64,000 nt of DNA. Origin: Candidatus Marithrix sp. Canyon 246. Its GTDB lineage: Bacteria > Pseudomonadota > Gammaproteobacteria > Beggiatoales > Beggiatoaceae. The stretch spans positions 124,001 through 188,000 of the forward strand of contig NZ_MCBX01000003.1 of NCBI RefSeq assembly GCF_001723685.1. The letters run 5' to 3'. The notes below the pieces were generated by a model. It saw only the letters and a list, made by a program, of their open reading frames with translations, was not told where the DNA came from and made no database searches. This document shows positions 7,625 through 49,695 of this stretch, one piece after another (within the stretch, counting starts at the first letter, position 1; the number at the start of each line of letters is the position of its first letter). A program made the position numbers and the translations under genes.

Positions 7625-8896
7625 ATGGGTGTATTTGAGATCGTAGCTGGTATATTAGTACTAGCAATAGGGGCTTTTAGTGTTAAAATTAAGCGGGATT
7701 TAAATGAGGTTTCGGTAAAATACCAAGATGTGCAAAAAAAACATCGAGATGTTGAACAAAGCCTTAAAGATAATCAAGCTAAATTATCTGCAACTTCAGA
7801 TAAATTGACAAAAGAACAACAACAAAATAAAAAGAATGAACAATCTCTTAAAGACAATCAAGCTGAATTAGCTAGCACAATAAAAAAATTAATTAAAGTT
7901 CAAACTCAAAATACCAAATTTGAACAAACGTTAAACGACACTCAAGCAAAATTGACAAAGGCAGAAACTAAGCTTCATGATATACATACAGAAGCTGCTG
8001 GATTAAAACAAAGCTTAAACGACACTGAAGCAAAACTGACACAAACAGAAACTAATCTGAAGAATAGCCATAAAGAAGCTGAAGGATTTAAGAAATCGTT
8101 AGAAGCTGCTGAAGCTAATCTTAATAATAGCCGCACAGAAGCTGAAGGATTTAAGAAATCATTAGAAGAAGCTGAAGCTAATCTTAATAATAGCCGCACA
8201 GAAGCTGAAGGATTTAAGAAGTCTTTAGAAGAAACTGAAGCTAAATTAGTTGAAACAGAAAATAATCTTAATGATAGCCATAAAGAAGCTGAAGGATTTA
8301 AACAATCATTAGAAGCTGCTGAAGCTAATCTTAATGATAGCCGTACAGAAGCTCAAGGATTTAAGCAATCATTAGAACAAGCTGAAGCTAAAGTAGAAGA
8401 ACTTAAAAAATCTCTTGCTGAAACTAATGAAAAATTAAATAAACTTAGTGAGACTCCAGAAATTATAGATGAAGATTTGATTTACAGTATTAAATCAGTA
8501 GCAACTGGTAAAGTTTTATTTATTCCGCAGGGTTCATTAAAGAATAATACGCCCATTAAGCAAGATACTTGGCGCGGTGGGCAAAATCAACAATGGCGTT
8601 TACAGTTATTAGGTGGTGCTGATCAAGGTTATTGTTATATTTTTTCGGTTAAAAGTAAAAAATGTATAGTCGCTTCACCGAAAGCAAAAGATAATAAAGC
8701 TGAAATTAATCAATATCAATGTAACGCTGAAAATCATCAAAAATGGAAATTAGTTCCTGTAAATGATGAACATTTTGTGATTGAATCTAAAAATAGTGGC
8801 AAAGTCTTAACGGTGTCAGATAATAAAATTATTGAAGACACATTACATGATGATGAGAATCAATACTGGATTTTAAATCAAGTAAATTCAAAATAA
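7625..8896 (+). CDS. Membrane-anchored coiled-coil protein with C-terminal ricin-type beta-trefoil
   Basis: This 423-residue protein has one N-terminal membrane segment (residues about 5-21, IVAGILVLAIGAFSV). A coiled coil of about 250 residues follows, built from repeats such as EAEGFKKSLEAAEANLNNSR. Residues about 290-423 form a ricin-B type lectin domain with three lobes, each ending in a QxW-like motif (QNQQWRL, NHQKWKL, NQYWIL). Ricin-type trefoils bind sugars. A stalked lectin facing the periplasm is the likely layout. The gene has a GGAG site and is followed after 14 bases by a bacteriohemerythrin, suggesting co-transcription. The repeats are near-identical in DNA and may vary in number. 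Confidence 0.8.
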   Translation: MGVFEIVAGILVLAIGAFSVKIKRDLNEVSVKYQDVQKKHRDVEQSLKDNQAKLSATSDKLTKEQQQNKKNEQSLKDNQAELASTIKKLIKVQTQNTKFEQTLNDTQAKLTKAETKLHDIHTEAAGLKQSLNDTEAKLTQTETNLKNSHKEAEGFKKSLEAAEANLNNSRTEAEGFKKSLEEAEANLNNSRTEAEGFKKSLEETEAKLVETENNLNDSHKEAEGFKQSLEAAEANLNDSRTEAQGFKQSLEQAEAKVEELKKSLAETNEKLNKLSETPEIIDEDLIYSIKSVATGKVLFIPQGSLKNNTPIKQDTWRGGQNQQWRLQLLGGADQGYCYIFSVKSKKCIVASPKAKDNKAEINQYQCNAENHQKWKLVPVNDEHFVIESKNSGKVLTVSDNKIIEDTLHDDENQYWILNQVNSK

Positions 8897-11908: not shown

Positions 11909-11936
11909 GATGATAATTAGAAAACCCGAGAACAAA

Positions 11937-12276
11937 CATTATCAAATTTCCATATAGCATAAGTAATTATTATCGAATAGTAACGGAAAATTTTTTTAAA
12001 ATCCCTAATTTAGTAGCACGTAAGCTTTATGTTGAGCGGCTATTTGAAATGCACTTGACAAAGTCAGAACGTGAATAAACAGGTAAACTTGCTCAATAAT
12101 TTTTTCAAGGTTTTTGACAATCGTGATTATAAGCTCGCCAATATATAAGTTTATCAGAAGTGAATCTAAGCGGGAAAGAACTTAGAAATATGAATGTTGA
12201 TAAATTAAAATTGAAATTGATTAGTGTTGTGGCTGTGGGGTTTGATCGCTTGGTTTGGGAAATTGTTGGTGAATAG
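11937..12276 (+). pseudogene. AAA-ATPase-like/PD-(D/E)XK nuclease gene remnant, copy 1
   Basis: A collapsed copy of the gene at 20042-21361. The start codon is changed (ATT at 11937 where copy 2 has ATG), then IKFPY-ISNYYRIVTENFF can be read. The sequence jumps to the middle (NLVARKLYVERLFEMHL), and after two more deletions reaches the end ISVVAVGFDRLVWEIVGE (stop 12276). The family pairs an AAA-ATPase-like domain (PF09820) with a PD-(D/E)XK nuclease domain (PF08011). The ATPase core and nuclease motifs are gone. Confidence 0.8.
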
Positions 12277-12337: not shown

Positions 12338-13981
12338 CTACTTCACTATATACCATAGTGCTCGATTATAATAATTGGCATCCGCTCCTACAAGCTCGGG
12401 ACTTTTGAGCCAACCACCCTCATTTCCGTCAGCACCAGTATGTTTCTTCCCTGTTGAAAACAGATATCTATTTGTCTTGAGGTTTTTCAACATATAGGCA
12501 TCTCCTCTTTTAATAAGTGTCCACTGTGCTCGGTTATAATAATTGGCATCTGCTCCTACAATAGTAGGACTCTTAAGCCAACCACCCTCATTTCCGTCAG
12601 ACCCAGTATGCTTGCTCCCTGTTGAAAATAAGTAGCGTTTAGTTTCTTTGTTTTGGAACTGGTAGATATTTCTATATGTAGTCATACACCAGCGTGCTCG
12701 GTTATAATAATTGGCATCTGCTCCTACAATATTAGGACTTTTTAGCCAACCTCCTTCTTTATTATTCACCGGTTTTCCTGTTGAGAATGCATAACGCTTA
12801 GTCTCTTGATTTTTCAAAAACACCGCATTTGCACACTTCAGAGGAGGAGTACTTTGTATTTCATTATTCTTACAACTATCAGCTTTTGTTTCTTTAACAG
12901 AATAGATTGCAATATTATATTGACCAGCATTTTCATCAAATCCACCATCTGACACGCCGAAAGATAACTTACCAGCATCTTTAGGAACTTCAATCACAAA
13001 ATGATAACGATTATTGGAATTATAAGTTGGAAGATTTGCTTTTCCTATACCATCTACAAACTTGATAAAGTTTGCAATATTGCGTGGTTCGCCTGCATAG
13101 GGTTTAAGCGGAGCACCATTCCAACCTATATTTAATTGATAATATTGTGGATCAAGAGGTTTACCAGTTTTAACACCAAAAAAAGCATCATTAACTGTCA
13201 TTCCATAACTGTATCCAGTTCCAGAAACTATCACTTCAACTAAGCCACTATAAGATTTAGCTGTAGAAGTAGATGGAGATGTAAATGGAGCTACTAAGCT
13301 TTCACCAGTACCAGTACGAGTGTAGGCTTGTGAAATATTCTTAGTGTTGCAATTTTCCACATACACAGCAGCACTTTTCATATAAGTAGTCATTTTCCAG
13401 TGCCCAGTACTGCCATCTGTACCCTTAGAACCGCCAGCACCAACATCCCAGTCACCAATAGGTTTATAACCGTTTGGTCCAGGACGAGGAGTTCCTGTGT
13501 TTGATGCGGTTAATTGAACATCTGTCACACAATTTTTTGTACCTGAACCAATTTTGGCTGTATTAGCATACATAGCCATCATATAGTGTCCAGTACTACC
13601 ATTAGTACCATGAGAACCGCCACCATCGACATCCCAATAACCAATCTGCTTATAACCAGCGGGGCCATTTGGAGGTGTTGATGAACTTGAAGCTCTTAAT
13701 TGGACATCTGTTACACAAGTAGAAGCCCCAGTTAAGTTGCCCTTTTTGAGATACAAAGCCATCATATAGTGTCCAGTACTGCCATTGGTTCCCTTTGAAC
13801 CGCCACCATCGACATCCCAGTAACCAACACGTGTGTAACCATTTGGCCCACTTGGGGGTGTTGCAGAGCTTGAAGCTCTTAATTGGATATCAGTTACACC
13901 ATAATTCACATTTTGAGCATTAACGGTACTCACCGCAGCTAAACCAAAAGACACTAAACCAATGATTATTTTTTTTGACAT
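12338..13981 (-). CDS. Secreted multidomain lectin: MABP-like prism, shared jelly-roll-like domain, trefoil-like repeats
   Basis: The 547-residue protein has a signal peptide (to about residue 22, STVNA). Three ~60-residue repeats follow (VTDIQLRASSS...GPNGYTRVGYWDVDGGG...STGHYMMALY). They resemble the three-fold MABP beta-prism. Residues about 215-370 are the island's shared domain (ISQAYTRTGTGESLVAPFTS ... KLSFGVSDGGFDENAGQY), whose end resembles the calcium-site edge of LecA-like lectins. The last ~150 residues are three lobes each ending EGGWLKSP...ANYYNRA(R/Q/L)W, suggesting a beta-trefoil. No anchor is seen. It is probably an extracellular sugar-binding matrix or adhesion protein. Domain names are inferred from pattern. 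Confidence 0.75.
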   Translation of the reverse strand: MSKKIIIGLVSFGLAAVSTVNAQNVNYGVTDIQLRASSSATPPSGPNGYTRVGYWDVDGGGSKGTNGSTGHYMMALYLKKGNLTGASTCVTDVQLRASSSSTPPNGPAGYKQIGYWDVDGGGSHGTNGSTGHYMMAMYANTAKIGSGTKNCVTDVQLTASNTGTPRPGPNGYKPIGDWDVGAGGSKGTDGSTGHWKMTTYMKSAAVYVENCNTKNISQAYTRTGTGESLVAPFTSPSTSTAKSYSGLVEVIVSGTGYSYGMTVNDAFFGVKTGKPLDPQYYQLNIGWNGAPLKPYAGEPRNIANFIKFVDGIGKANLPTYNSNNRYHFVIEVPKDAGKLSFGVSDGGFDENAGQYNIAIYSVKETKADSCKNNEIQSTPPLKCANAVFLKNQETKRYAFSTGKPVNNKEGGWLKSPNIVGADANYYNRARWCMTTYRNIYQFQNKETKRYLFSTGSKHTGSDGNEGGWLKSPTIVGADANYYNRAQWTLIKRGDAYMLKNLKTNRYLFSTGKKHTGADGNEGGWLKSPELVGADANYYNRALWYIVK

Positions 13982-14084
13982 TATTTAAACAATTTCCAAG
14001 AAAAGAAACTCCAATTCTACAACATAAATTAATAATTAATACTATTAATTATTAATAATAACCATTACTAATTTTAATAAATTG

Positions 14085-14170
14085 CAAAAATATCTCATAT
14101 TCCCCACAAATGACCAATTTTATTGTTACTTGATAAACTATTTGATAATCTCAAAATAGACTGAATGAAG
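14085..14170 (-). promoter_or_regulatory. Conserved upstream block of lectin genes, copy 1
   Basis: About 85 bases lying roughly 100-190 bases before the ATG at 13981. They match 18129-18213 and 22877-22962 closely, including CATATTCCCCA, CTTGATAAACTATTTGA and TCTCAAAATAGACTGAATGA. The block lies upstream of three of the four genes that carry the shared lectin domain, so a common promoter or operator is likely. At the other two copies it also faces pgaC. Confidence 0.55.
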
Positions 14171-14183
14171 TCACTTTATTTAA

Positions 14184-14267
14184 TAGAGTTGTCCGGAAAT
14201 AAGTATTTTATAGGTTTGTTTAAATAATTGTTTTTATTCAGTGAAAATTTATTTCCGGACAACTCTA
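14184..14267. mobile_element. Miniature inverted-repeat element (84 bp)
   Basis: Perfect 19-bp terminal inverted repeats (TAGAGTTGTCCGGAAATAA at 14184-14202, complement at 14249-14267) enclose an A+T-rich core with no reading frame. The terminal TA could be a duplicated TA target, as in Tc/mariner- and IS630-type miniature elements, but this is inference. Confidence 0.6.
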
Positions 14268-14278
14268 ATAAACAAAAA

Positions 14279-14415
14279 GGCGTTGTTGCATAAATATAAA
14301 ATCAATGATATATCAAACGAATGATTTAGTTATGAGCAAGAAACAACGTTATAAAGTAAGAAATTGGAAATAATATAATGAGGCTTTGGTAAAACGAGGT
14401 AGTGTGATCTTTAAA
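14279..14415 (+). mobile_element. IS903-like (IS5 family) 5' end remnant
   Basis: GGCGTTGTTGCATAAATA at 14279 resembles the terminal inverted repeat of IS903-type elements. The ATG at 14332 opens MSKKQRYKVRNWK, a stop, then YNEALVKRGSVIF, which matches the conserved start of IS903-group transposases. After about 28 codons the similarity ends abruptly. No right end is seen, so the element is an immobile fragment. Confidence 0.65.
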
Positions 14416-14428
14416 TCACACTTTGCAT

Positions 14429-15112
14429 TTAAATGCATGATGCTGGCAAATTGCTCTTCACAGGATAAACTTTAATATTATATTGACCACCATTATCAGC
14501 AAAATCACCATCTGCTACGCCAAAGGATAAACGACCAGCATTTTTAGGAACTTCCATTACAAAATGGTAACTGTGCTTATTGTTATAGGCTGGAAGAGCA
14601 GCTAATCCCATACCATCCACAAACTTGATGAAGTTTGCAATGTTACGTGGTTCACCTAAGTAGGCTTCAAGTGGAGCACCATTCCAACCAAGGTTTAACT
14701 GATAATATTGTGGATCAAGAACTTTACCTGTTTTAACACCAAAAAATACATCATTAACTGTGGTTCCATAACTGTATCCAGTTCCAGAAACTACTATTTC
14801 AACTAAGCCACTATAAGATTTAGTAGTGGAAGTAGATGGAGAAGTAAATGGAGCAACTAGATTTTCACCAGCACCAGCGCGAGTGTAGGCTTGTGAAATT
14901 TGCTTCGTTTTGCAGGGATTTGGCACTTTTATGAAAGTGTTACCAAAATCTATATTTCCAATACTATCACCAAGCTTCACGACTATTTTATAACCACCAG
15001 CACTTGAATTCAAGGCAGTGTCTGCCTGAGCAATGTTGCTGATAATAGTTATCGGCAGAAGGCTTGTAAGAACTGCTACCTTACTGTAGTGCCATATTTC
15101 TCTTTGTACCAT
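14429..15112 (-). CDS. Secreted protein: SdrD-like tail plus shared lectin-like domain
   Basis: The 227-residue protein has a signal peptide (to about residue 30, IAQA). Residues 38-62 (GGYKIVVKLGDSIGNIDFGN) match the closing strand of SdrD B-type repeats and occur almost identically in the next gene (15232-16674). The remaining ~155 residues are the shared domain (QISQAYTRAGAGENLVAPFT ... RLSFGVADGDFADNGGQYNI). It looks like a shortened, recombined member of the family. No anchor or catalytic motif is visible. An extracellular sugar-binding role is inferred. Confidence 0.7.
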   Translation of the reverse strand: MVQREIWHYSKVAVLTSLLPITIISNIAQADTALNSSAGGYKIVVKLGDSIGNIDFGNTFIKVPNPCKTKQISQAYTRAGAGENLVAPFTSPSTSTTKSYSGLVEIVVSGTGYSYGTTVNDVFFGVKTGKVLDPQYYQLNLGWNGAPLEAYLGEPRNIANFIKFVDGMGLAALPAYNNKHSYHFVMEVPKNAGRLSFGVADGDFADNGGQYNIKVYPVKSNLPASCI

Positions 15113-15168
15113 GTGAATACCTAAAATTGAATGATTTTAGCAGGAGTGATGATAAAAACAAAACTATC

Positions 15169-15201
15169 AGACCTGTCAGGTTTTAAAAACCTGACAGGTC
15201 T
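15169..15201. repeat. Dispersed 33-bp palindrome, copy 2
   Basis: AGACCTGTCAGG/CCTGACAGGTCT palindrome. The flanks (TTTAGGCCAAAA on one side, CTATC on the other) also match, in reverse, those of the copy at 47059-47091. So the mobile unit is about 45-50 bp. It lies 31 bases beyond the stop of the SdrD-like gene. Confidence 0.9.
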
Positions 15202-15231
15202 TTAGGCCAAAATATTTAGAAAAACTATATA

Positions 15232-16674
15232 TTAGTTACGAGGACCGGGAAAGGTTTGTCTGTAGCCTTGAGGAACGATTTCGCGTACCACATATGTGCC
15301 AGCTTCCAAATTGGAGAATTTGTATTTACCGTTTTTATCAGTAACTTGACTTGGTTCACCTTTGTCGAGTTTACCATTCTCATTAACATCCAGATAAATA
15401 GTCACGCCGGCTATTCCAGCTTCATCCTTATCGCGTAAACCATCGCTATCTAAGTCATTCCACTTAGTACCCCAAATTTCAGCTAACTTGATTAAAGTAT
15501 TACCAAAATTGATATTTCCAATACTATCACCAAGCTTAACTACTACCTTATGACCACCTGCAATAGTTTGTTGTCCCATAAAGCTGGTAGGAGAAGTGGT
15601 TTGGTTTGGAAGATTATAAGAACCTGAACAACCGTTTATAACTATAGAATCAAGAGCAAAGTTGACCCCAGTACCGACTTTGTTGGGATTATTAACTACA
15701 CTTAGTGCCTTATGATTGTATCTTGTCCAGTAAATTTTACCATTATGGGCTAACTTTGGACCACCAAAACCAGCAGTTAAACTCAACTGGGTCTTGATTT
15801 TATCTTTTAGATCGAATTGCCATGCTTTGCCATTATATCCATTAATACCATCAGTATAATACAATTTGCTACCGTCTGGAGAAAAAGCTGTTGCATATCC
15901 AACTGTGCCGGTTATTATCTCTTTGAGATCAGAAATTTTACCAGTGGAACGGTCTATTTTAGCAGTAGCAATACGTTTATTTCCCCAACCCAAAGCAAGT
16001 GTATCATAATTAGGGCTATGAACAATAGAACCAGAAGCTATATTGCCAGTAAAACCAGTGTTGGAAGTAACTGGTAAGCGGGCTAACCCAGAACTATTTA
16101 GTTTGTAAGCATCTATTTTATCAGCTTTGTTAAAGACAAGTATCCATAAATCAGTACCATTGGTATGTGGTACTACACCAAGTGTATGACCAGTATTATT
16201 GGCTAGCAACTCTTTTTTTCTGATAACTGTGCCGTTAGATCCCATAGACAAATCAGCAACAGAGAAATATACAATGTTGCCGTTGCTAGTGAAAACATAG
16301 AACAAGTCAGGATTGGTGCCTATAGCTGGCACAATCATTGCTATCCCCAAATGATTTGTCGTGCCACCCAATACAGTTCCGTTTTCTAAAGCTTGATTAG
16401 TTTGTCCATTGAAAACTGTATTTCCATCAGTGTAGAGTATTAGTTTGCCAGAATCTGGATCAGTAAAGTTGGCGCTGCCCCCATAACTCGCGCTTTGACC
16501 AACTGGAGTTTTGCAAGTTATTTTAGGATTTTCATCAGTGAAATCAATTAAGAACTTTTTATTTTGATTACCAGAATACCAGATTTGTTCCAAAGATGTG
16601 TTCGCCTTAACAACACCAGTAGCAAGAGCTATCGGCAGAATGCCTGCAATAAGTTTGGTAGAAATTCGTACCAT
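15232..16674 (-). CDS. Secreted beta-propeller protein with SdrD-like B domain
   Basis: The 480-residue protein has a signal peptide (to about residue 24, GVVKA). A propeller-like region of about 320 residues follows, with YGGSANFTDPDSGKLILYTD and repeated DGSKLYYTDG/GNIVYFSVAD blades. Then comes an SdrD tail (KVVVKLGDSIGNINFGN) and one SdrD B-type repeat (IWGTKWNDLDSDGLRDKDEA ... GTYVVREIVPQGYRQTFPG). It stops where a typical repeat would continue, so the C-terminus is probably truncated. It carries no shared lectin domain, but its SdrD tail is duplicated in the neighbouring gene. The role is likely surface adhesion. Confidence 0.75.
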   Translation of the reverse strand: MVRISTKLIAGILPIALATGVVKANTSLEQIWYSGNQNKKFLIDFTDENPKITCKTPVGQSASYGGSANFTDPDSGKLILYTDGNTVFNGQTNQALENGTVLGGTTNHLGIAMIVPAIGTNPDLFYVFTSNGNIVYFSVADLSMGSNGTVIRKKELLANNTGHTLGVVPHTNGTDLWILVFNKADKIDAYKLNSSGLARLPVTSNTGFTGNIASGSIVHSPNYDTLALGWGNKRIATAKIDRSTGKISDLKEIITGTVGYATAFSPDGSKLYYTDGINGYNGKAWQFDLKDKIKTQLSLTAGFGGPKLAHNGKIYWTRYNHKALSVVNNPNKVGTGVNFALDSIVINGCSGSYNLPNQTTSPTSFMGQQTIAGGHKVVVKLGDSIGNINFGNTLIKLAEIWGTKWNDLDSDGLRDKDEAGIAGVTIYLDVNENGKLDKGEPSQVTDKNGKYKFSNLEAGTYVVREIVPQGYRQTFPGPRN

Positions 16675-16867
16675 ATTAATACCTTAAATTAATGTTAATT
16701 GAATAATAATAGTAGTTGCAAAATCTATAGATTCTGCTTTCAGTGGGCTTATTGACTGACAGAACTGTGCAATTCTAGCCCACCCGAGACACTACTAATC
16801 TCGGGTTCGATGTGTGATTGAAAAAACAATGTGAAAACTTAGAAGAATTCAATCACTAACTAATTTC

Positions 16868-17946
16868 CTATTTTGAGCATGATGCTGGCAAATTGCTCTT
16901 CACAGGATAAACTTCAATATTATATTGACCACCGTTATCAGCAAAATCACCATCTGCTACGCCAAAGGATAGGCGACCAGCATTTTTAGGAACTTCCATC
17001 ACAAAATGGTAACTGTGCTTGTTGTTATAGACTGGAAGAGCAGCTAATCCCATACCATCCACAAATTTGATAAAGTTTGCGATATTACGTGGTTCACCTA
17101 AGTAGGCTCTAAGTGGAACGCCATTCCAACCAAGGTTTAACTGATAATATTGTGGATCAAGAGGTTTACCTGTTTCAACACCAAAAAATACATCATTAAC
17201 TGTGGTTCCATAACTGTATCCAGTTCCAGAAACTATCACTTCAACTAAGCCGCTATAAGATTTAGTTGTTGAAGTAGATGGAGATGTAAATGGAGCAACT
17301 AGATTTTCACCAGCGCCAGTGCGAGTGTAGGCTTGTGAAATTTTCTTGGTTTTGCAATCAGGCTTGACACCAATTGGCTCAAATCTATCACGATATGTCC
17401 ATGATAGAATGTCATGATTTGCAAAAGCAGCACCGGTAGCAGATGTAAAACCTATAAACGCTTTAGGAGCAGCACCGATGATTTGTGAGAGATTCAACGA
17501 ACGCGCCAATAAAGCTTTGGCTGGACGCTTGCCAGTAGTGTTAGCACGTACTTCCATCTTGCCACCATCATAGTCTATCCACACATGCCAAATTTGACCT
17601 CTTTCAAAAGCGGGATTGACTACAACCGTAGGACCATTAAAACCGCCATTAATGTTGATACCGACATGGTTGTCGTTAGGATCGTTCCAAGAGCGACTAT
17701 TGTTCCATGTGTCAAATTCTACATTTGAACTGATGGGTTGTACCACAAAAACGATACCATCTGCACCGCCATTACCCGGGCTACTTATTTTAAATTTAGT
17801 TAAGCGTAGTACCACACCATCTTGTGTTCTTACAGTTTTGGCGTGTCTATTTAAGCTACAGTACTATTCGCTATAGGAGAAAATGCTGTTAATACACCTG
17901 TCATGATTAATGTTGACGGATTAGTCATTTTTTTTACTATCTTCAT
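16868..17946 (-). pseudogene. Broken L-type lectin gene with shared domain
   Basis: The ATG at 17946 opens a signal peptide (MKIVKKMTNPSTLIMTGVLT), the same as in the gene at 22693. The frame stops after NSTVA. In another frame the sequence goes on with RHAKTVRTQDGVVLRLTKFK into an L-type (legume) lectin domain: GGADGIVFVVQ, VEFDTWNN, DPNDNHVGININ and FTSATGAAFANHDILSW. The shared domain follows and ends SNLPASCSK. The lectin's first strands are also missing. The part from 17815 onward is open (315 residues) but would lack a signal peptide. It may be a recent pseudogene or a misread indel. Confidence 0.7.
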
Positions 17947-18128
17947 AAATAATATAATTATTAATTGTTTAAATGAAACTTTTTATTAAAATAGGGTGAC
18001 CAATTCAATTATACAGCATAAATTTATAAATAATAATAATTTTTATTAACTGACATTATTAATACATGAATATAACTTAAAAAAACAATATATTAAGATT
18101 GTAATTATTTTAATTAGTGTTTCTAAAT

Positions 18129-18213
18129 AGCAAAAAATACCATATTCCCCATAAATTACAGTTTTATTACTTCTTGATAAACTATTTGATAATCTCAAAA
18201 TAGACTGAATGAA
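18129..18213. promoter_or_regulatory. Conserved upstream block, copy 2 (divergent lectin/pgaC)
   Basis: Matches 14085-14170 and 22877-22962. Here it lies between the divergent starts of the L-type lectin pseudogene (17946) and pgaC (18266). The whole 18-kb intergenic stretch (about 17947-18265) is nearly identical to 22694-23004. Confidence 0.55.
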
Positions 18214-18265
18214 CTTTTTTAAAAAACATATTAAATAACTGGATAATATAATAATTATAATAATT

Positions 18266-19510
18266 ATGGAAGTTTTCTCTTTTTTATTTAACTTTACTTT
18301 CTATTATCCTTTATTTATGGCATATGTCTGGATGCTTGGTGCTATATATTATTACTTTTACTGGGAGCGAAAAGGCACTACAGAATTACCTACATTATCT
18401 CAATACCCCCCAGTTTCTATTCTAATACCTTGTCATAATGAGGGTGATAATGCACGAGAAACTATTCATTATGCCATACAGCAAGTATATCCAAATTTCG
18501 AGGTGATTGCTATCAACGATGGTAGTACCGATAATACCGCTGAAATATTGGATGAATTGGTCAAACAATATGACAAATTACGTGTAATCCACTTAGCTAC
18601 TAACCAAGGTAAAGCTATGGGATTGTGCATGGCTACTTTAGCATCATCCTGTGAATATCTGATTTGTATTGATGGTGATGCTTTATTAGATCCTCATGCA
18701 ACTCATTGGATGATGAAACATTTTGTGGACAATCCTTCGGTAGGAGCAGTCACTGGTAATCCACGCATTCGCAATCGTTCCAGCATACTAGGAAAGCTTC
18801 AAGTTGGCGAATTTTCCTCTATTATAGGACTGATAAAACGGGCACAAAGATTTTATGGGAGAATATTTACAGTGTCAGGAGCTATTGTTGGCTTTCGTAA
18901 AGTAGCTTTACAACGTATTGGTTATTGGAGTTTGGATATGATAACTGAAGATATTGATGTTAGTTGGCGACTACAATTAGATCATTGGGAACTCCATTAC
19001 GAACCTCGTGCCTTGTGTTGGATACTCATGCCTGAGACTTTAAAAGGACTATGGAATCAACGCCTACGTTGGTCTCAGGGTGGTACAGAGGTTTTAATTC
19101 GATATTTCAATAGGTTGTTTGAATTAAAAAGCTGGCGCATGTGGCCCTTATATTTGGAATACCTTATCAGTATATTTTGGGCTTATTCTATGGTTTTGAC
19201 TGTAATTATTTTATTAATAAATATATTAATATCAAATATGTCAGATTCTTTAAATCAACCCATTTTGATCTCAGGTTGGAGCAGTATGTTACTTGGTGTA
19301 ACTTGTTTGTTGCAGTTTTTACTTAGCTTAGTTATTGATGGACGCTATGAAAAAGGTTTAGCTAAATACTATTATTGGATGATTTGGTATCCAATTGCTT
19401 ATTGGTTAGTAAATGTAGCAACCTGTGTAATTGCTACACCTAAAACTTTTTTAACGAAACGTGGTAAACGAGCCACATGGGTTAGTCCAGATAGAGGTAA
19501 GAAAATATGA
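18266..19510 (+). CDS. pgaC: Poly-beta-1,6-N-acetylglucosamine synthase (PgaC-like GT2)
   Basis: The 414-residue processive GT2 enzyme has an N-terminal membrane segment (about 8-30), then VSILIPCHNEGDNARETI, VIAINDGSTDNTAEIL, the DxD-type IDGDALLDP, TEDIDVSWR (catalytic Asp) and the processive QRLRWSQGG motif. Two or three membrane segments follow at the C-terminus. PgaC polymerises UDP-GlcNAc into the biofilm polysaccharide PNAG across the inner membrane. pgaD follows with a four-base overlap. pgaA and pgaB, for deacetylation and export, are not seen in the window. A decayed second copy lies at 23005. Confidence 0.92.
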   Translation: MEVFSFLFNFTFYYPLFMAYVWMLGAIYYYFYWERKGTTELPTLSQYPPVSILIPCHNEGDNARETIHYAIQQVYPNFEVIAINDGSTDNTAEILDELVKQYDKLRVIHLATNQGKAMGLCMATLASSCEYLICIDGDALLDPHATHWMMKHFVDNPSVGAVTGNPRIRNRSSILGKLQVGEFSSIIGLIKRAQRFYGRIFTVSGAIVGFRKVALQRIGYWSLDMITEDIDVSWRLQLDHWELHYEPRALCWILMPETLKGLWNQRLRWSQGGTEVLIRYFNRLFELKSWRMWPLYLEYLISIFWAYSMVLTVIILLINILISNMSDSLNQPILISGWSSMLLGVTCLLQFLLSLVIDGRYEKGLAKYYYWMIWYPIAYWLVNVATCVIATPKTFLTKRGKRATWVSPDRGKKI

Positions 19511-19932
19511 ATTCAATTATAATTGAAACACCTAATTTGCAAATACTGAAACAACACTATCAAGATAGTACATTAGTTTTAATCGGTTGGATAAGCTGGT
19601 TTTATTTCTGGCGACCAATATTGAATTTAATATTGTGGGGAGGCATGATATGGTTTGTTTACAATAAAGTATTGTTTATAAATTTTACCAGCATCTTTAA
19701 TGAATATATTGTAATTATTTTAATAATTGGAATTCTGATGGCTTTTTGGTTGCTTTATACTCATTTCAAATACCAATATCAGAATAATCAACAAACTCTA
19801 ACAGCGAATCATCAAAACATTGCTAATGATTTTGGTGTTACAATACAGACATTGGGGACATTACAAATGGCACAACGGATGATAATCCATTTAGATGATA
19901 AAGGCTGTATCCACCAAGTTGATGTTTCATAG
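19507..19932 (+). CDS. pgaD: PgaD-like subunit of PNAG synthase
   Basis: The 141-residue protein has two membrane segments (about 21-50 and 65-87) and a short cytoplasmic tail. It overlaps pgaC by four bases (ATGA). Size, topology and position match PgaD, which supports PgaC activity and in other bacteria responds to cyclic-di-GMP together with PgaC. Sequence similarity is weak by eye (FYFWRPILNLILW), so context carries the call. The last codons merge into a small hairpin (19924-19943) that also ends the nuclease copy at 21353. Confidence 0.75.
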   Translation: MNSIIIETPNLQILKQHYQDSTLVLIGWISWFYFWRPILNLILWGGMIWFVYNKVLFINFTSIFNEYIVIILIIGILMAFWLLYTHFKYQYQNNQQTLTANHQNIANDFGVTIQTLGTLQMAQRMIIHLDDKGCIHQVDVS

Positions 19933-19945
19933 CAATTATGAAACA

Positions 19946-19996
19946 AGTGTAGTGGCAGTGGGATTTGATCGATTGGTTTGGGAAATTGTAAATTAG
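19946..19996 (+). pseudogene. Nuclease C-terminal fragment
   Basis: Encodes SVVAVGFDRLVWEIVN and a stop, matching the last 15 residues of the PD-(D/E)XK-type nuclease at 20042-21361. It is preceded by the same palindromic GTTTCATA...TATGAAAC sequence that follows the larger copy, suggesting an earlier tandem duplication. Confidence 0.7.
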
Positions 19997-20041
19997 TTGT
20001 ACTATAATATATTTCAATTATTAGAAAATCCGAGAACAAAC

Positions 20042-21361
20042 ATGATCAAATTTCCATATGGCATAAGTAATTATTATCGAATAGTCACAGAAAATTATTT
20101 TTATGTAGATCGTAGTCATCACATTAGACTAATTGAAGAAGCAGGGGATTAATTACTTTTTTTACCCCCTCGTCGCTTTGGTAAAAGTCTGCTATTATCA
20201 ATGCTATAAAATTACTACGACGTAGCCAAAGCTGATGATTTTGATAAATTATTTGGTATGTCGGTATGTATAAATCTTAATGCATATTTACATAATATTA
20301 AGTACAGCGAATTACGTGGATAAACAAATTATTTAAATTAAACTTTATTAGTTTATCCACGTAATTCGTTGTACTTATTTTTGTAAATTAATATCAATCC
20401 TAAAGATGCTTTAGCTTCATGGCAATCATTATTAACTGCAATACAAAAAACTTCTTACAAACTCTATTTATTGACGAATATTGCCAATGAAGTAATGATG
20501 GGCAAACAGAAAATCAGCTACTAGCGGGCAAGGTTTAGAGCGAGTTTTTATTACTGGTGTTTCTCCAGTTTTAATGACTGATATTACCAGTTCTTATAAT
20601 GTTGCAAAAGATATTTATTTAAGATCAGAATTTAATGATTTATGCGGATTTAGAGAATCTGAAATTAAATCACTTTTAAGCCTCTAAACAAAAAGAACAA
20701 GATGCCTTACATCTAATCAAAAGCTTTTATAATGGTTATTGTTTTAACGAAACTGCTCAGGAATTTCTTTATAATCCCTAATTTAGTAGCACGTAAGCTT
20801 TATGTTGAGCGGCTATTTGAAATGCACTTGACAAAATCAGAACGTGAACAAACAGGTAAACTTGCTCAATAATTTTTTCAAACTGCTGATTTGCAAGCAA
20901 TCTGCGATTTTATGGAACCGCATTATTTCAAGGTTTTTGACAATCGTGATTATAAGCTCGCCAATGAATTAACTATAAAAACAGCATTTTTAACCATTTT
21001 ATTTAATGACGTTCTTTATGTAATGGATTCAGAATTTTCAACCGGGCGACGCTATGTAGATTTGAGTATGATTATTCGCCCAGAGCGACGTAAGTTTCCA
21101 ATTTTTGATTTTATTTTAGAATTCAAATATATAAGTTTATCAGAAGTGAATCTAAGCGGCGAAGAGCTTAAAGATATGAGTGTTGATAAATTAAATGATT
21201 TGGCTCTTGTTAAGAAAAATGCTGCTGATGCTAAAAAGCAATTGCTTAGCTATAATGCTAGTTTGCAGAAAAAATATGGTGATGAATTGAAATTGAAATT
21301 GATTAGTGTTGTGGCGGTGGGGTTTGATAGATTGGTTTGGGAAATTGTTGGTGTTTCATAA
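20042..21361 (+). pseudogene. AAA-ATPase-like/PD-(D/E)XK nuclease gene, copy 2 (largest, inactivated)
   Basis: From the ATG at 20042 the family features can be read: MIKFPYGISNYYRIVTENYF, YVDRSHHI and the ATP-binding LLFLPPRRFGKSLLLSML. Later come ERVFITGVSPVLMTDITSSY, LCGFRESEI, SFYNGYCF and, in an open 156-residue stretch (20891-21361), the nuclease domain (MDSEFSTGRRYVDL..., FDFILEFKYIS). Several stops, frameshifts and a central deletion that now holds an inverted repeat (20300-20376) break it. This family (PF09820 + PF08011) is often amplified in large-genome bacteria, and its function is unclear. Confidence 0.85.
20300..20376. mobile_element. AGTACA-type miniature inverted repeat, copy 1
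   Basis: 26-bp arms (AAGTACAGCGAATTACGTGG... at 20300-20325 and its complement at 20351-20376, one mismatch) enclose 25 A+T-rich bases. It sits inside the nuclease pseudogene. Related elements are at 49615-49684 and, more distantly, 48302-48374. No transposase is present, so it would be moved in trans. Confidence 0.75.
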
Positions 21362-21490
21362 TCGCAATTATGAAACAGAGTGTGACCTAAATTTGAGGTA
21401 ACATAAAATTATATGTCACAGTATAATTTTTTAAATGTTTTATAAAAAATTATTCTACACAATGCCTAGATTTATTACTATAATCGGCTA

Positions 21491-22693
21491 TTATGGAGCA
21501 ACTACTTTGAAACTACTAAAAGCCTTAGTAGTAGAATACCCATTCTTTGCAAACATACGCAACTCATATTCTCCAATACCAAGCTTGGCTAAATTAAACG
21601 TTAATCTACCGGAGATATTACCAGAATATTGAAAATCAATATACTGCTTATGATTATTAACACCCTTTTTGTATATACCAATCCAGTCCTTCGAGTTGCG
21701 GTTTAATTTATTTTTATAGCTAACTACTATATGATCACCATATTTGATAATAGCTTCATTATTTATAAAAACTTGTTTTGCATTGGGGTTAGGATTTGCA
21801 ATCTTGTAAACACTATTTGTCCAAGAGTCACCGCATTTTTGGCTTGGATTACCCTTACAAGGCATATTGCAATTACTGGCAGTCCCATATTTGCCATAAC
21901 TATTCCCACAATGACAGTAGCTACTATACTGAGTCCCAGCATAGGCATATCCCAGAAGTTTACAGTGTTCTATGCACTTTTCAGTTGTCATTTGAGAATT
22001 ATCAATCCACTGGACTCCATTTAAATCACGATCATTTATTGTAGAACCACTGTCTTTAAAACAACCGAGTGCTTTAGCAACTGCTTCTGAATCGGGTTTA
22101 TTATTTTCAGAGTTACAAACAAGCTGATTGTTAATAGGATAGATTTCAATATTATATTGACCATCATTTTCATCAAATCCACCATCTGACACGCCGAAAG
22201 ATAACTTACCAGCATCTTTAGGAACTTCAATCACAAAATGATAACGATTATTGGAATTATAAGTTGGAAGATTTGCTTTTCCTATACCATCCACAAACTT
22301 AATGAAGTTTGCAATATTGCGTGATTCACCTACATATGGTTTAAGTGGAGCACCATTCCAACCAAGGTTTAACTGATAATATTGTGGATCAAGAAGTTTA
22401 GCAGTTTTAACACCAAAAAAAGCATCATTAACTGTCATTCCATAACTATATCCAGTTCCAGAAACTATCACTTCAACTAAGCCACTATAAGACTTCGTTG
22501 TTGAAGTAGATGGAGATGTAAATGGAGCAACTAAGCTTTCACCAGCACCAGTGCGAGTGTAAGCTTGTGCAATTTTTTTACTTTGGCAATTTTCCACAGA
22601 CACATCAGCACTATTAGCTATAGGCGAAAATGCTGTTAATACACCTGTCATGATTAATGTTGACGGATTAGTCATTTTTTTTACTATCTTCAT
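21491..22693 (-). CDS. Secreted lectin: shared domain, WSC domain, C-terminal Ig-like domain
   Basis: The 400-residue protein has a signal peptide (to about residue 28, ANSAD). The shared domain covers about residues 35-190 (KIAQAYTRTGAGESLVAPFT ... SFGVSDGGFDENDGQY). A cysteine-rich WSC domain follows at about 210-305 (LGCFKDSG, CIEHCKLLGYAYAG, YCHCGNSYG, CNMPCKGNPSQKCG). The last ~90 residues (VSYKNKLNRNSKDWIGIYKK ... GEYELRMFAK) resemble an Ig-like domain of secreted phosphatases and lectins. WSC domains bind polysaccharides. The divergent neighbour is a decayed pgaC, so this gene pair duplicates the 17.9/18.3-kb arrangement. Confidence 0.8.
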   Translation of the reverse strand: MKIVKKMTNPSTLIMTGVLTAFSPIANSADVSVENCQSKKIAQAYTRTGAGESLVAPFTSPSTSTTKSYSGLVEVIVSGTGYSYGMTVNDAFFGVKTAKLLDPQYYQLNLGWNGAPLKPYVGESRNIANFIKFVDGIGKANLPTYNSNNRYHFVIEVPKDAGKLSFGVSDGGFDENDGQYNIEIYPINNQLVCNSENNKPDSEAVAKALGCFKDSGSTINDRDLNGVQWIDNSQMTTEKCIEHCKLLGYAYAGTQYSSYCHCGNSYGKYGTASNCNMPCKGNPSQKCGDSWTNSVYKIANPNPNAKQVFINNEAIIKYGDHIVVSYKNKLNRNSKDWIGIYKKGVNNHKQYIDFQYSGNISGRLTFNLAKLGIGEYELRMFAKNGYSTTKAFSSFKVVAP

Positions 22694-22876
22694 AAATAAT
22701 ATAATTATTAATTGTAATTAAATACTTTTTGTTGTTTAAATAGAGTCACCAATTCAATTCTACAGCATAAATTTATAAATAATAATAAATTTTATTAACT
22801 GACATTATTAATACATAAATACATTTAAAAAAACAATATATTAAGATTGTAATTATTTTAATTAGTGTTTCTAAAT

Positions 22877-22962
22877 AGCAAAAAATACCATATTCCCCAT
22901 AAATTACAGTTTTATTACTTCTTGATAAACTATTTGAGAATCTCAAAATAGACTGAATGAAC
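22877..22962. promoter_or_regulatory. Conserved upstream block, copy 3
   Basis: Nearly identical to 18129-18213, between the divergent lectin gene (start 22693) and the decayed pgaC (start 23005). The block is intact although pgaC is not, so the lectin gene may be what maintains it. Confidence 0.55.
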
Positions 22963-23004
22963 TTTTTTAAAAAACATATTAAATAACTGGATAATATATT
23001 AATT

Positions 23005-23497
23005 ATGGAAGTTTTCTCTTTTTTATTTAACTTTACTTTCTATTATCCTTTATTTATGGCATATGTCTGGATGCTTGGTGCTATATATTATTACTTTTAC
23101 TGGGAGCGAAAATGCACTACAGAATTACCTACATTATCTCAATACCCCCCAGTTTCTATTCTAATACCTTGTCATAATGAGGGTGATAATGCACGAGAAA
23201 CTATAAATATTGGATGAATTAGTAAAACAATATGACAAATTACGTGTAATCCACTTAGCTACTAACCAAGGTAAAGCTATGGGATTGTGCATGGCTACTT
23301 TAGCATCATCCTGTGAATATCTTTCGGTAGGAGCAGGATCTGGTAATCCACGCATTCGCAATCGTTCCAGCATACTAGGAAAGCTTCAAGTTGGCTTTCG
23401 TAAAGTAGCCTTACAACGTATTGGTTATTGGCAACTCCATTACGAACCTCGTGCCTTGTGTTGGATACTCATTTCTTGGGAAATTGTTGGTGAATAG
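23005..23497 (+). pseudogene. Second pgaC copy, collapsed by several deletions
   Basis: The first 70 codons match pgaC at 18266 almost exactly. Four internal deletions then remove the region after ARETI, the DxD segment, the segment from EFSSIIG to AIVG, and the TEDID catalytic segment. The last bases switch to the nuclease C-terminal tail (SWEIVGE, stop 23497). At least one junction falls in a short repeat present in the intact copy (GTTGGC). No active enzyme can be made. Confidence 0.88.
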
Positions 23498-23505
23498 TGA
23501 GTCAA

Positions 23506-23536
23506 ATCATCAACCTTAAAGTGTTAGGTTGATGAT
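23506..23536. terminator. Hairpin beyond the AI-2E permease gene
   Basis: ATCATCAACCT (23506-23516) pairs with AGGTTGATGAT (23526-23536). It lies nine bases beyond the permease stop on the minus strand and between convergent ends. The downstream tract is not T-rich on either strand, so confidence is modest. Confidence 0.4.
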
Positions 23537-39704: not shown

Positions 39705-42700
39705 ATGGCAAGAAATATAAAAGTTAAAGTTGCGAAAACTAAACATGGTACGAAAGTACAATCTCCAATGATTGTACATGAATCTTCAATTTTTTCATTT
39801 AAAACAGTTTTTTTAATGATGATATTATTGGGATTAATTGTATTAACTCATTTAGAATTAAAAGAACAATTTGTATTAAATAACATTATTGAACCACTTT
39901 TATCAGGCAAGAAGTCAGTTCCTGAAGAAGAAAAAAGGGATTTTTCTTCTACATCAGTGACTTTTCATGACAGGTTACAAAATGCAATGGATGCAGTTGA
40001 AAAAGTTTCTTTAATGGATCCACCTACTCAAATATTTAAACCAGTAATAACACCAACTCCAAATCCAACTGTAACAACTCAAACTGATGTAGTAAAACCT
40101 ATAGTAACAGCATCTGTTTCAAATGTAGTAACTAAGTATCATGCTGTAGTTTCAGGAGATATTTTATATAATATTGCACAAAAATATGGAGTTAATTATA
40201 AGGATTTAGCGGATTGGAATAATATTGATAATCCTGCGGATTTGAAATTAGGACAAAAATTATTACTTTCTGAACCAGCAAAACCCACAGTGGTTGCTGT
40301 GAATAATAAGGGTTTAGAACAACCAGCTTATCATGTAGTAAAAAGTGGTGATTTTTTAGCTAAAATTGCAAAACAATATAACGTGAATTATATGAATTTA
40401 GCGCGTTGGAATAATATTGCTGCTCCTTATGCTTTGAAATTAGAACAAAAATTATTAGTTTCTGAACCTCCCAAAACTAAAAAACCCGAACCAGTTCCAG
40501 TGATTGATAAGCATCATATAGTAAAAAGCGGTGATTTTTTAGCTAAAATTGCAAAACAATATAACGTGAATTATATGAATTTAGCGCGTTGGAATAATAT
40601 TGCTGCTCCTTATGCTTTGAAATTAGGACAAAAATTATTAGTTTCTGAACCACCAAAACCAACAGTGGTTGCTGTGATTGATCATGATAAGGATGGTGTT
40701 CCTGATGATAAGGATTTTTGTCAAAATACTACAACTGAAGAAATTAGTAAGGGAATTGATAATATGGGTTGTGTTATCAAAACGCAAGAAAAACCGAAAC
40801 AATCAGAACAACCAGCTTATCATGTAGTAAAAAGTGGTGATTTTTTAGCTAAAATTGCAAAACAATATAACGTGAATTATATGGATTTAGCGCGTTGGAA
40901 TAATATTGCTGCTCCTTATGCTTTGAAATTAGGACAAAAATTATTAGTTTCTGAACCACCAAAACCAACAGTGGTTGCTGTGATTGATCATGATAAGGAT
41001 GGTGTTCCTGATGATAAGGATTTTTGTCAAAATACTACAACTGAAGAAATTAGTAAGGGAATTGATAATATGGGTTGTGTTATCAAAACGCAAGAAAAAC
41101 CGAAACAATCAGAACAACCAGCTTATCATGTAGTAAAAAGTGGTGATTTTTTAGCTAAAATTGCAAAACAATATAACGTGAATTATATGGATTTAGCGCG
41201 TTGGAATAATATTGCTGCTCCTTATGCTTTGAAATTAGGACAAAAATTATTAGTTTCTGAACCACCAAAACCAACAGTGGTTGCTGTGATTGATCATGAT
41301 AAGGATGGTGTTCCTGATGATAAGGATTTTTGTCAAAATACTACAACTGATGAAATTATTAAAGGAATTGATAATATGGGTTGTGTTATAAAAACGGAAG
41401 CAACACCGGAACAACCAGCTTATCATGTAGTAAAAAGCGGTGAAATATTATTTAATATTGCTAAAATTTATAAAGTCTATTATAAGGATTTAGCGCGTTG
41501 GAATAATATTCCTTATCCTTATGCTTTGAAATTAGGACAAAAATTATTAGTTTCTGAACCAGAAGCACCAGAAGCACCAGAAGCACCAGAAGAAACAATT
41601 ATTGCTGTTCCTGATAATGACAAAGATGGTGTTAATGATGATAAAGATTCTTGCCCCAATACCACTACTGATGAAATTATTAAAGGAGTTGATGATTTCG
41701 GTTGTGTTATCAAAACGGCAGAAAAACCAGCTTATCATATAGTAAAAAGCGGCGATTTTTTAGCTAAAATTTCTAAACGTTATCGAATTTCTTATAAAGA
41801 TCTAGCTCGTTGGAATAATTTACCGCGCCCTTACAATTTGAAACTAGGACAAAAATTAGTACTTTCTGCACCTCTTGATCAAGATCACGATGATGTTCCT
41901 GATGATAAAGATCATTGCCTTAATACCACTATTGAAGAAATAGGTAAAGGTGTTGATGCTATGGGTTGTGTTATTAATACACCTGAAATTTCAAAAAATG
42001 AACCAGTATATCATATTGTAAAAAGGGGTGAAAGTTTATTTAAAATTTCTAGGTTGTATAAAGTGTCTTATACAGATCTTGCCCGTTGGAATAACATTTC
42101 CATATCTTCTTCATTGAATCTGGGTCAAAAATTATTAGTTTCCAAACCTATAGAGTCATTTTTAAGTGTGGATACAGATGAAGATGGGATTGATGATGAC
42201 AAAGATCGTTGTCCAAATAATACTGAAGATGAAGTTATTAATGGGGTTGATGAAAATGGTTGTGCTATTAAAATAGAAGATTATTTTGATTTTCCTAAAA
42301 AAAAAGTTTCTAAACCAGTATTAAGAACTACAAAAAAAAAGTTATTGTTTCATGATCGTTTAAGAAATGGCAATTTAGGACCACAAATGGTATGGATACC
42401 TGCTGGTTCGTTTAAGATGGGTGATCTGCAAGGAGGCGGTGAAAAAGATGAACAACCTATTCATAAAGTAGATATTAAACGCTTTGCAAGTTCTCGTTAT
42501 GAAATAACATTTTCAGACTATGATAAATTTGCTACAGCCACTAGACGCAAAAAACCACATGATGAAGGTTGGGGTAGAGGAATTAGACCAGTTATAAATG
42601 TTAATTGGGAAGATGCCAGAGCTTATTGTACATGGTTAAGTCGTGAAACTGGACATCACTACCGCCTGCCTACTGAAGCAGAATGGGAATATGCAGCTCG

Positions 42701-43100
42701 TGCTGGAAGCAAAACCAAATATTGGTGGGGAAATCGTATTGGAACTAACAATGCAACTTGTAATAAATGTAATTCTAAATGGGGCTGGGATGCTCAAAAT
42801 ATGACTGCACCAGTTGGTTCTTTTAAAGCGAATCCATTTGGATTATATGATACAGTTGGTAATGTTTATGAATGGACTTGTTCTGCATATGGAGTAGAAC
42901 TAAAAGCTAATAAAAAAGAACTGGTAAAATATAATGGCAAAGAACAGACTTGTGTGAATAGAAAAACTAAAAATAAATTCAGAGTTATTCGTGGCGGGCA
43001 TTGGTTAAGCGATCCTGAAGATAATCGTGCCGCACACCGTTTTGAGTCTTGGTTAGGTTATCGGGTTAATTTTATTGGATTTAGAGTTGTAAGAGAATAA
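39705..43100 (+). CDS. Membrane-anchored LysM/TSP3-like repeat protein with formylglycine-generating-enzyme-like domain
   Basis: The 1131-residue protein has one membrane segment (about 29-47, FKTVFLMMILLGLIVLTHLE). Eight LysM modules follow (for example YHVVKSGDFLAKIAKQYNVN ... LKLGQKLLVSEP), the later ones alternating with six short calcium-type acidic repeats like OmpA/thrombospondin-3 (DHDKDGVPDDKDFC ... GIDNMGCVI). The C-terminus (about 890-1131) is an FGE/SUMF1-type domain: MVWIPAGSFKMGD, YRLPTEAEWEYAARAG, GLYDTVGNVYEWT and FRVIRGGHW. LysM binds peptidoglycan. FGE-like domains often lack sulfatase-activating function in such fusions. The repeats are near-identical in DNA (unit 306 bp). 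Confidence 0.88.
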   Translation: MARNIKVKVAKTKHGTKVQSPMIVHESSIFSFKTVFLMMILLGLIVLTHLELKEQFVLNNIIEPLLSGKKSVPEEEKRDFSSTSVTFHDRLQNAMDAVEKVSLMDPPTQIFKPVITPTPNPTVTTQTDVVKPIVTASVSNVVTKYHAVVSGDILYNIAQKYGVNYKDLADWNNIDNPADLKLGQKLLLSEPAKPTVVAVNNKGLEQPAYHVVKSGDFLAKIAKQYNVNYMNLARWNNIAAPYALKLEQKLLVSEPPKTKKPEPVPVIDKHHIVKSGDFLAKIAKQYNVNYMNLARWNNIAAPYALKLGQKLLVSEPPKPTVVAVIDHDKDGVPDDKDFCQNTTTEEISKGIDNMGCVIKTQEKPKQSEQPAYHVVKSGDFLAKIAKQYNVNYMDLARWNNIAAPYALKLGQKLLVSEPPKPTVVAVIDHDKDGVPDDKDFCQNTTTEEISKGIDNMGCVIKTQEKPKQSEQPAYHVVKSGDFLAKIAKQYNVNYMDLARWNNIAAPYALKLGQKLLVSEPPKPTVVAVIDHDKDGVPDDKDFCQNTTTDEIIKGIDNMGCVIKTEATPEQPAYHVVKSGEILFNIAKIYKVYYKDLARWNNIPYPYALKLGQKLLVSEPEAPEAPEAPEETIIAVPDNDKDGVNDDKDSCPNTTTDEIIKGVDDFGCVIKTAEKPAYHIVKSGDFLAKISKRYRISYKDLARWNNLPRPYNLKLGQKLVLSAPLDQDHDDVPDDKDHCLNTTIEEIGKGVDAMGCVINTPEISKNEPVYHIVKRGESLFKISRLYKVSYTDLARWNNISISSSLNLGQKLLVSKPIESFLSVDTDEDGIDDDKDRCPNNTEDEVINGVDENGCAIKIEDYFDFPKKKVSKPVLRTTKKKLLFHDRLRNGNLGPQMVWIPAGSFKMGDLQGGGEKDEQPIHKVDIKRFASSRYEITFSDYDKFATATRRKKPHDEGWGRGIRPVINVNWEDARAYCTWLSRETGHHYRLPTEAEWEYAARAGSKTKYWWGNRIGTNNATCNKCNSKWGWDAQNMTAPVGSFKANPFGLYDTVGNVYEWTCSAYGVELKANKKELVKYNGKEQTCVNRKTKNKFRVIRGGHWLSDPEDNRAAHRFESWLGYRVNFIGFRVVRE
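40647..41564 (+). repeat. 306-bp tandem coding repeat
   Basis: GAACCACCAAAACCAACAGT begins at 40647, 40953 and 41259, an exact 306-bp (102-codon) period. Each unit encodes one acidic TSP3-like repeat and one LysM module. The first two units are almost identical and the third is diverged in its second half. This is the signature of recent unit duplication and a possible site of length variation. Confidence 0.9.
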
Positions 43101-47030: not shown

Positions 47031-47050
47031 AATTCTACTGATACCGATTT
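47021..47050. repeat. 30-bp direct repeat A at nfi start
   Basis: 28 of 30 bases match 47177-47206. The copy at 47177-47206 is the true end of the formate-dehydrogenase-like frame (SVLVELWI). This copy still encodes nearly the same end (SVSVELWI) and overlaps the nfi ATG. The pair of palindromes lies between. Confidence 0.8.
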
Positions 47051-47058
47051 TGGCCTAA

Positions 47059-47142
47059 AGACCTGACAGGTTTTAAAAACCTGTCAGGTCTGATACGAAG
47101 TCTATTGTTAGACCTGACAGGTTTTAAAAACCTGTCAGGTCT
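47059..47142. repeat. Dispersed 33-bp palindrome, tandem copies 3 and 4
   Basis: Palindromes at 47059-47091 and 47110-47142, separated by TGATACGAAGTCTATTGTT-type spacer. The 51-bp unit (palindrome plus spacer) is exactly repeated. The array is bracketed by the 30-bp direct repeats 47021-47050 and 47177-47206. Confidence 0.9.
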
Positions 47143-47176
47143 GATACGAAGTCTATTGTTCTAATTTATCATAGCT

Positions 47177-49538: not shown

Positions 49539-49614
49539 AATGCCACTGCCATAAATTCTACAATTCTGTAAATTCTGATTCAGACAAACAATATTGTAAA
49601 AACTCTTCCATATG

Positions 49615-49684: not shown

Positions 49685-49695
49685 ATTTTATGTAT

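Follow-up and report, generated by a model that had tools for sequence, protein, structure and literature searches.

Within the 64,000-nucleotide stretch of Candidatus Marithrix sp. Canyon 246 analysed here (contig NZ_MCBX01000003.1, positions 124,001 to 188,000; hereafter the window), an island of approximately 11 kb was found to carry four copies of a domain of approximately 150 residues, all on the minus strand and within 10 kb. The copies are joined to different partner modules and are interspersed with an intact pgaC-pgaD pair. We put at about even the chance that the proteins of this island are LecA-like superlectins for adhesion to a surface or within a matrix, which arose through duplication of a divergent gene pair, exchange of partner modules and decay. 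Genes and proteins of the island are referred to below by their first coordinate.

The shared domain

The four copies of the domain are located as follows:
12875-13336, minus strand: copy 1, in the 12338 protein
14441-14908, minus strand: copy 2, in the 14429 protein
16883-17350, minus strand: copy 3, in the broken 16868 gene
22118-22576, minus strand: copy 4, in the 21491 protein

The initial annotation had described four proteins with this domain. All four copies stand, with three residing in intact open reading frames (ORFs), but the fourth supposed protein (16868-17946) proved to be a broken gene. At the protein level, identity to the 14429 copy was 76% (12338), 94% (16868) and 76% (21491) over approximately 150 residues, ruling out chance similarity. 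At the DNA level the copies pair off, with 94% identity for 14429/16868 and 91-93% for 12338/21491, compared to 81-85% between pairs. The ratio of non-synonymous to synonymous substitution rates (dN/dS, NG86) for the six pairs of copies was below one throughout (0.21-0.36), which points to purifying selection on the domain. A genome-wide search (3,238,828 bases in 44 contigs, 98% complete) returned the same four copies and a fifth short match, this being a sliver of SdrD-type sequence within the 15232 protein.

No match above chance was obtained for the domain in Pfam, NCBIfam or the sequences of the PDB, where the best hits (0.23 and 0.26) were to unrelated proteins and nothing was significant. 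No description of it was found in the literature, in searches that were narrow and do not prove the domain to be unpublished.

Likeness of the domain to PA-IL/LecA

The end of the shared domain had been likened in the initial annotation to the calcium-site edge of LecA, and this held to a moderate degree. An AlphaFold2 model built from the four near-identical sequences (predicted local distance difference test score, pLDDT, 55.6; predicted template modelling score, pTM, 0.61) was compared to PDB structures using VIA-align, with matches within 1 Z taken as tied. Among the 50 matches listed, the N-terminal domain of EclA (6ygq; Z 6.4, 3.2 Å, 96 of 121 residues, 20% identity) had the top identity and nearly the lowest root-mean-square deviation (rmsd). 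Other members of the family were PllA (Z 6.0) and LecA (Z 5.8), the rmsd for the three ranging from 3.2 to 4.3 Å.

A motif, D-x4-[DE]N-x-G, was present in 5/5 domain sequences, to be compared with D-x6-DN-x-GE in 4/4 PA-IL sequences. It places D133, D/E138 and N139 of the domain on Asp114, Asp121 and Asn122 of EclA by sequence, Asn122 being a calcium ligand according to PMC11875179. Numbering of these ligands follows EclA only; the expected residue was present in the EclA sequence at all five calcium-ligand positions, with its numbering running six higher. The offset of 17 between N139 and Asn122 equals that of the final residue pair in the structural alignment to 6ygq (151-134), in a register test that, for both EclA and PllA, compares the ends of the aligned ranges only.

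Profile comparison with hhalign of the domain against four PA-IL sequences gave a score of 20.9 (P 0.009), with only positions 67-148 aligned. Column shuffling equalled or exceeded this score in 3 of 300 cases for the domain (maximum 25.5) and in 1 of 300 for PA-IL (maximum 22.8), while seven control modules from the window scored 11.2-14.9 against the domain and 9.0-16.4 against PA-IL, and reversed profiles 13.4-13.5. With only two PA-IL sequences P was 0.054, and further PA-IL sequences sought in plasmids, phages and viral contigs were not found.

A number of observations weigh against a LecA-like identity. Confidence in the model is modest, with residues 46-111 below a pLDDT of 50, and a second model, made from a copy of the domain in a metagenome-assembled genome (MAG, described below), reached 42.7 and was left out of the structure search. 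Foldseek with the domain model found nothing at E <= 0.001, and among the VIA-align matches listed, the tied Z values included those of many picornavirus capsids (up to 6.5, at about 5-6 Å) and of a galectin from a fungus (6.0). Compared with PA-IL, the putative calcium loop lacks two residues, two of the four window copies possess E instead of D at one ligand position, and the end register of PllA is off by one (156-122 gives 34, the motif 35). Furthermore, the hhalign probability for PA-IL was just 4.6%, an unrelated control module reached as much as 16.4 against the PA-IL profile, and no match to PF07828 (PA-IL) was reported by hmmscan for 5 members at E values up to 10. The LecA-type structure and calcium-site motif are considered suggestive rather than conclusive; the domain is probably related to PA-IL, a relationship that is unproven, and there is moderate support for its being a LecA-like lectin that binds calcium.

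It is also possible, if rather doubtful, that the shared domain is a structural beta-sandwich that does not bind sugar (a spacer, dimeriser or surface anchor), leaving any glycan binding to its partners. Conserved stretches all along the domain, beyond the putative calcium edge, are consistent with this, as are the capsid jelly rolls at tied Z and the case of EclA, for which PMC11875179 gives no known carbohydrate ligand for the LecA-like domain and fucose binding for the partner domain. The agreement of both motif and register with the calcium site of EclA argues for the LecA-like lectin instead.

Further fusions of the LecA type were observed in genome G175, where a PA-IL domain lies C-terminal to another region at L065:859-1815 (the preceding region being DUF642) and L066:1495-2445.

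Proteins of the island

The proteins and modules identified in the island were the following:
12338-13981, minus strand: intact protein of 547 residues with a signal-like hydrophobic N terminus, three repeats of approximately 61 residues, the shared domain and three 56-residue repeats
13364-13897, minus strand: the three tandem repeats of approximately 61 residues (earlier called MABP-like), family unnamed
12341-12844, minus strand: the three 56-residue trefoil-like repeats (RicinB_lectin_2, 5.2e-5)
14429-15112, minus strand: intact protein of 227 residues with a signal-like hydrophobic N terminus, an SdrD sliver and the shared domain
15232-16674, minus strand: protein of 480 residues with a signal-like N terminus, a sub-threshold PD40 propeller match and SdrD_B (3.5e-16)
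16868-17815, minus strand: open frame of the broken lectin gene, with the C-terminal half of a legume-type lectin and the shared domain
17851-17946, minus strand: orphaned signal peptide, ending in a stop and in a frame different from that of the lectin
21491-22693, minus strand: intact protein of 400 residues with a signal-like N terminus, the shared domain, WSC and a SKICH/Ig-like domain
21830-22069, minus strand: WSC domain (PF01822, 8.3e-19; Kremen 1 WSC, 1.9e-7)

The proteins bearing the domain are probably secreted, judging by their hydrophobic N termini, which were recognised with a hydropathy window rather than a signal-peptide predictor; that of 21491 is less hydrophobic. The partners proposed by the initial annotation fared unevenly. 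Those of 21491 were both recovered, the WSC domain being accompanied by a SKICH (Ig-like) match at 3e-8. For 12338, the tandem repeats proposed as a MABP-like prism exist, although neither Pfam nor the PDB yielded a match by which to name them, and the trefoil-like lobes correspond to repeats with a RicinB_lectin_2 match just under threshold (24.3 bits, cut-off 25.6); the whole protein had no match in plasmids or phages. The SdrD tail attributed to 14429 is merely a sliver of approximately 33 residues, 70% identical to part of the 15232 protein, to which the SdrD_B match belongs and which lacks the shared domain.

An L-type lectin was correctly recognised in 16868 (PF00139, 8.1e-23), but the match covers profile positions 121-237 of 250 only, with a stop upstream in frame. 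The span 16868-17946 is not a single coding sequence, as its listed frame contains 19 stops. It is regarded as a broken gene because its signal peptide is encoded in a different frame and terminated by a stop, and because the legume lectin is only partly matched. The leading residues of this orphaned signal peptide are those of the 21491 N terminus.

Approximately 3.4 kb from the island, a protein of 423 residues (window 7625-8896) was observed to combine coiled-coil-type matches with a ricin-type trefoil (RicinB_lectin_2, 2.2e-22).

Duplicated blocks and nuclease remnants

In addition to what the initial annotation had reported, a second, broken pgaC and a duplicated upstream region were identified. 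The repeated and decayed elements of the island are as follows:
17859-18465: duplicated block comprising signal peptide, upstream region and pgaC start (94.6% over 612 columns to 22606-23204)
14078-14169: upstream element, copy 1 (88% to 18124-18213)
18124-18213: upstream element, copy 2, sequence repeat
22872-22961: upstream element, copy 3, sequence repeat
23005-23473, plus strand: second pgaC, a pseudogene with internal deletions and its 3' part missing
11913-12271, plus strand: PD-(D/E)XK nuclease-family remnant at the left edge of the island, in pieces 91-100% identical to parts of 19946-21361
19946-21361, plus strand: broken PD-(D/E)XK nuclease-family gene (PF08011, 1.4e-7 at 20891-21361)

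Over codons 1-68 the pgaC pseudogene has 97% identity, and codons 94-255 are then matched with gaps. Homology to the other copies extends to the upstream region of 12338 (box 14078-14169, 87-88%), with no piece of pgaC found beyond it. A 131-base query from the upstream region gave three matches in the genome, all within the island (40 of 49 first-look candidates scored), by which a widely dispersed repeat was rejected, and no match in the congener G001 (40 of 55 first-look candidates scored). The broken nuclease gene lies in two stretches, 19946-19989 and 20017-21361, with a further piece of 37 bases (89%) at 23476-23512.

There is good support for the island having grown by duplication and by exchange of modules, and the shuffling in progress suggested by the initial annotation is borne out by the occurrence of the same domain with different partners, the duplicated blocks and the broken copies. 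The simplest history, as read from these repeats, would be that a domain gene and a pgaC, transcribed away from a common upstream region, were duplicated together, with later loss and exchange of partners. Arrival by horizontal transfer was also considered from composition; GC content of the island genes (29.8-41.1%, window 34.5%) gave no clear signal.

Several palindromic elements were observed as well. An inverted repeat at 14185-14266 (by eye), resembling a mobile-element scar, lies at the expected place of a third pgaC. An imperfect palindrome of approximately 100 bases, like a miniature inverted-repeat transposable element, occurs twice in the window (20286-20388, within the broken nuclease gene, and 49612-49703), and a short palindromic repeat, like repetitive extragenic palindromes, occurs at 15165-15213, 2595-2628, 47047-47146 and 50657-50690.

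pgaCD and the question of PNAG

The pgaC-pgaD pair placed inside the island by the initial annotation was confirmed:
18266-19510, plus strand: pgaC, intact (TIGR03937, 626.6 bits, cut-off 422.3)
19507-19932, plus strand: pgaD, intact (TIGR03940, 56.9 bits, cut-off 31.45; PF13994, 3e-16)

The working poly-N-acetylglucosamine (PNAG) system implied by that annotation was not. Neither PgaB (best 53.2 bits, cut-off 321.9) nor PgaA (best 32.4 bits, cut-off 366.65) was found above cut-off in the window's genome, so PNAG export is unsupported; in an assembly that is 98% complete, a gap could in principle be the cause. Of 36 genomes, five possess pgaC above cut-off and four PgaB, the latter being the pgaC genomes minus the window's own. 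PgaA was above cut-off in three of six genomes (G008, G013 and G043, and not G000, G001 or G042), and as G042 has pgaB and pgaC with no recognised pgaA, a missing PgaA match is not unique. Four other genomes with pgaC were examined over five stretches, covering the surroundings of pgaC and, in G013, also pgaB, which lies further away. BLASTP (E 1e-3) recognised pgaC or pgaD ORFs in these stretches but no counterpart of the domain or of any other island protein, in a comparison that did not extend to other lectin families.

These results bear on the proposal that the island encodes PNAG-binding matrix lectins organising the polymer of the neighbouring pgaCD, which is considered improbable. It draws on two duplicated units in which pgaC and a domain gene are divergently paired, on the upstream region of pgaC in a third, and on the matching of the upstream element in the island only. 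Pairing that comes about through duplication, however, requires no function, and one of the duplicated pgaC copies decayed while its lectin gene stayed open, indicating that lectin and pgaC are not strictly kept together. The lack of above-cut-off PgaA and PgaB and of island-protein matches beside pgaC elsewhere also counts against it, the former likewise weakening any PNAG-matrix role under the superlectin reading. A role of the island proteins in organising PNAG is weakly supported.

Even less probability is assigned to a variant in which the proteins form a previously undescribed lectin family, its LecA-type calcium loop shortened, that evolved as the partner of an orphan PgaCD and whose superlectins would capture or retain poly-GlcNAc. 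The same low standing is given to its further supposition that this poly-GlcNAc would be fully acetylated and made without PgaA and PgaB, with the superlectins replacing the usual export and anchoring parts.

Distribution and a relative elsewhere

A single-sequence search for the domain found relatives in one of 57 genomes and a phylum sample in one of 398, in both cases the window's own. A class-level alignment search returned four of 369 genomes: the window's own, G115 (1.1e-34) and two marginal ones dropped as chance, namely G160 (0.003; 54 profile positions, an apparent outer-membrane barrel by eye) and G213 (0.006; 43 profile positions, an aldehyde-dehydrogenase-like protein by eye). In the genus and order of G115 (1/3 and 1/6 genomes with the domain) only G115 itself was positive. 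Two scans of genome contigs, which rest on short exact peptide patterns so that distant relatives may be missed, gave no locus (alignment A1) and one locus (alignment A2), the latter in the gammaproteobacterial MAG Biocath_Gamma_008, taken as that of G115. No copy was found in viral contigs, phages or plasmids.

The domain of this MAG relative is about 42-48% identical to the window copies and is followed by a PEP-CTERM match (PF07589) of 17.2 bits, below the cut-off of 20.7, with none in NCBIfam. Exosortase TIGR02602 was found over cut-off in the MAG genome (273.9 bits), with no match in the window's genome or the congener G001, and the window proteins have no Pfam match to a PEP-CTERM tail. 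PEP-CTERM/EpsH is an exopolysaccharide-linked sorting system as presented in PMC1569441, with which the sub-threshold tail and the exosortase of the MAG would fit. No exopolysaccharide gene was recognised within 8 kb of the relative (ORFs of at least 150 residues, by eye, with no profile scan), its neighbours being housekeeping-type genes and transporter parts by eye. An adjoining protein of 800 residues (L017:8940-11342) has GGDEF- and EAL-like motifs by eye and is a possible cyclic-di-GMP enzyme.

Proposed function and origin

Under the superlectin reading, the shared domain would be a lectin of the jelly-roll type that has diverged from its PA-IL/LecA relatives and in which D-x4-[DE]N-x-G forms a putative edge for a calcium ion. 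The presumably secreted proteins would join it to modules of sugar-binding type (trefoil-like repeats, WSC with an Ig-like domain and, formerly, a legume-type lectin), so that each protein could bridge two different glycans in the manner of a superlectin. The cluster most likely grew by repeated duplication of the divergent pair, after which partner modules were probably exchanged and decay set in, leaving one pgaCD, one pgaC pseudogene, one pgaC lost and one broken lectin.

It is very unlikely that the island is instead a decaying, repeat-driven duplication hot spot beside nuclease-gene remnants with no present function, as the four remnant pieces (11913-12271, 19946-19989, 20017-21361 and 23476-23512), the broken 16868 and pgaC and the palindromic repeats might suggest, since three domain ORFs and pgaC and pgaD are intact and the dN/dS values of the domain copies are low.

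Other features of the window

Elsewhere in the window, a protein of 1131 residues with eight LysM stretches and an FGE-sulfatase domain (39705-43100), a caspase-domain (Peptidase_C14) protein with DUF4384 (1115-2428) and a group II intron reverse transcriptase/maturase (52349-53818) were noted.

Comparison with known systems

The shared domain resembles the PA-IL/LecA family (PF07828; LecA, PllA, EclA-N) in that these are among its best low-rmsd structure matches and in its putative calcium-edge motif. It differs in lacking a Pfam match, in its shorter putative calcium loop and in its length (156 residues versus 121). LecA and PllA bind galactose in a calcium-dependent manner, and no counterpart of their galactose-binding loop was recognised, though this was not tested formally. 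EclA, in which a LecA-type domain is fused to a second lectin-type domain (PMC11875179), is the nearest characterised analogue found.

In comparison to the PEP-CTERM/exosortase proteins, likeness is confined to the MAG relative and its genome, whereas the window proteins and genome have neither tail nor exosortase matches. The intact pgaC and pgaD resemble the pgaABCD system, unlike which the island records a pgaCD pair with no PgaA or PgaB above cut-off in its genome. Superlectins or chimerolectins such as EclA and BC2L-C likewise combine one lectin domain with another kind of lectin module in each protein; here, in contrast, a single domain occurs alongside several kinds of partner inside 10 kb of one genome. 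The 11-kb stretch illustrates a way in which multi-module lectins can be assembled, with the domain and its upstream region duplicated, the partners varied and broken copies still present.

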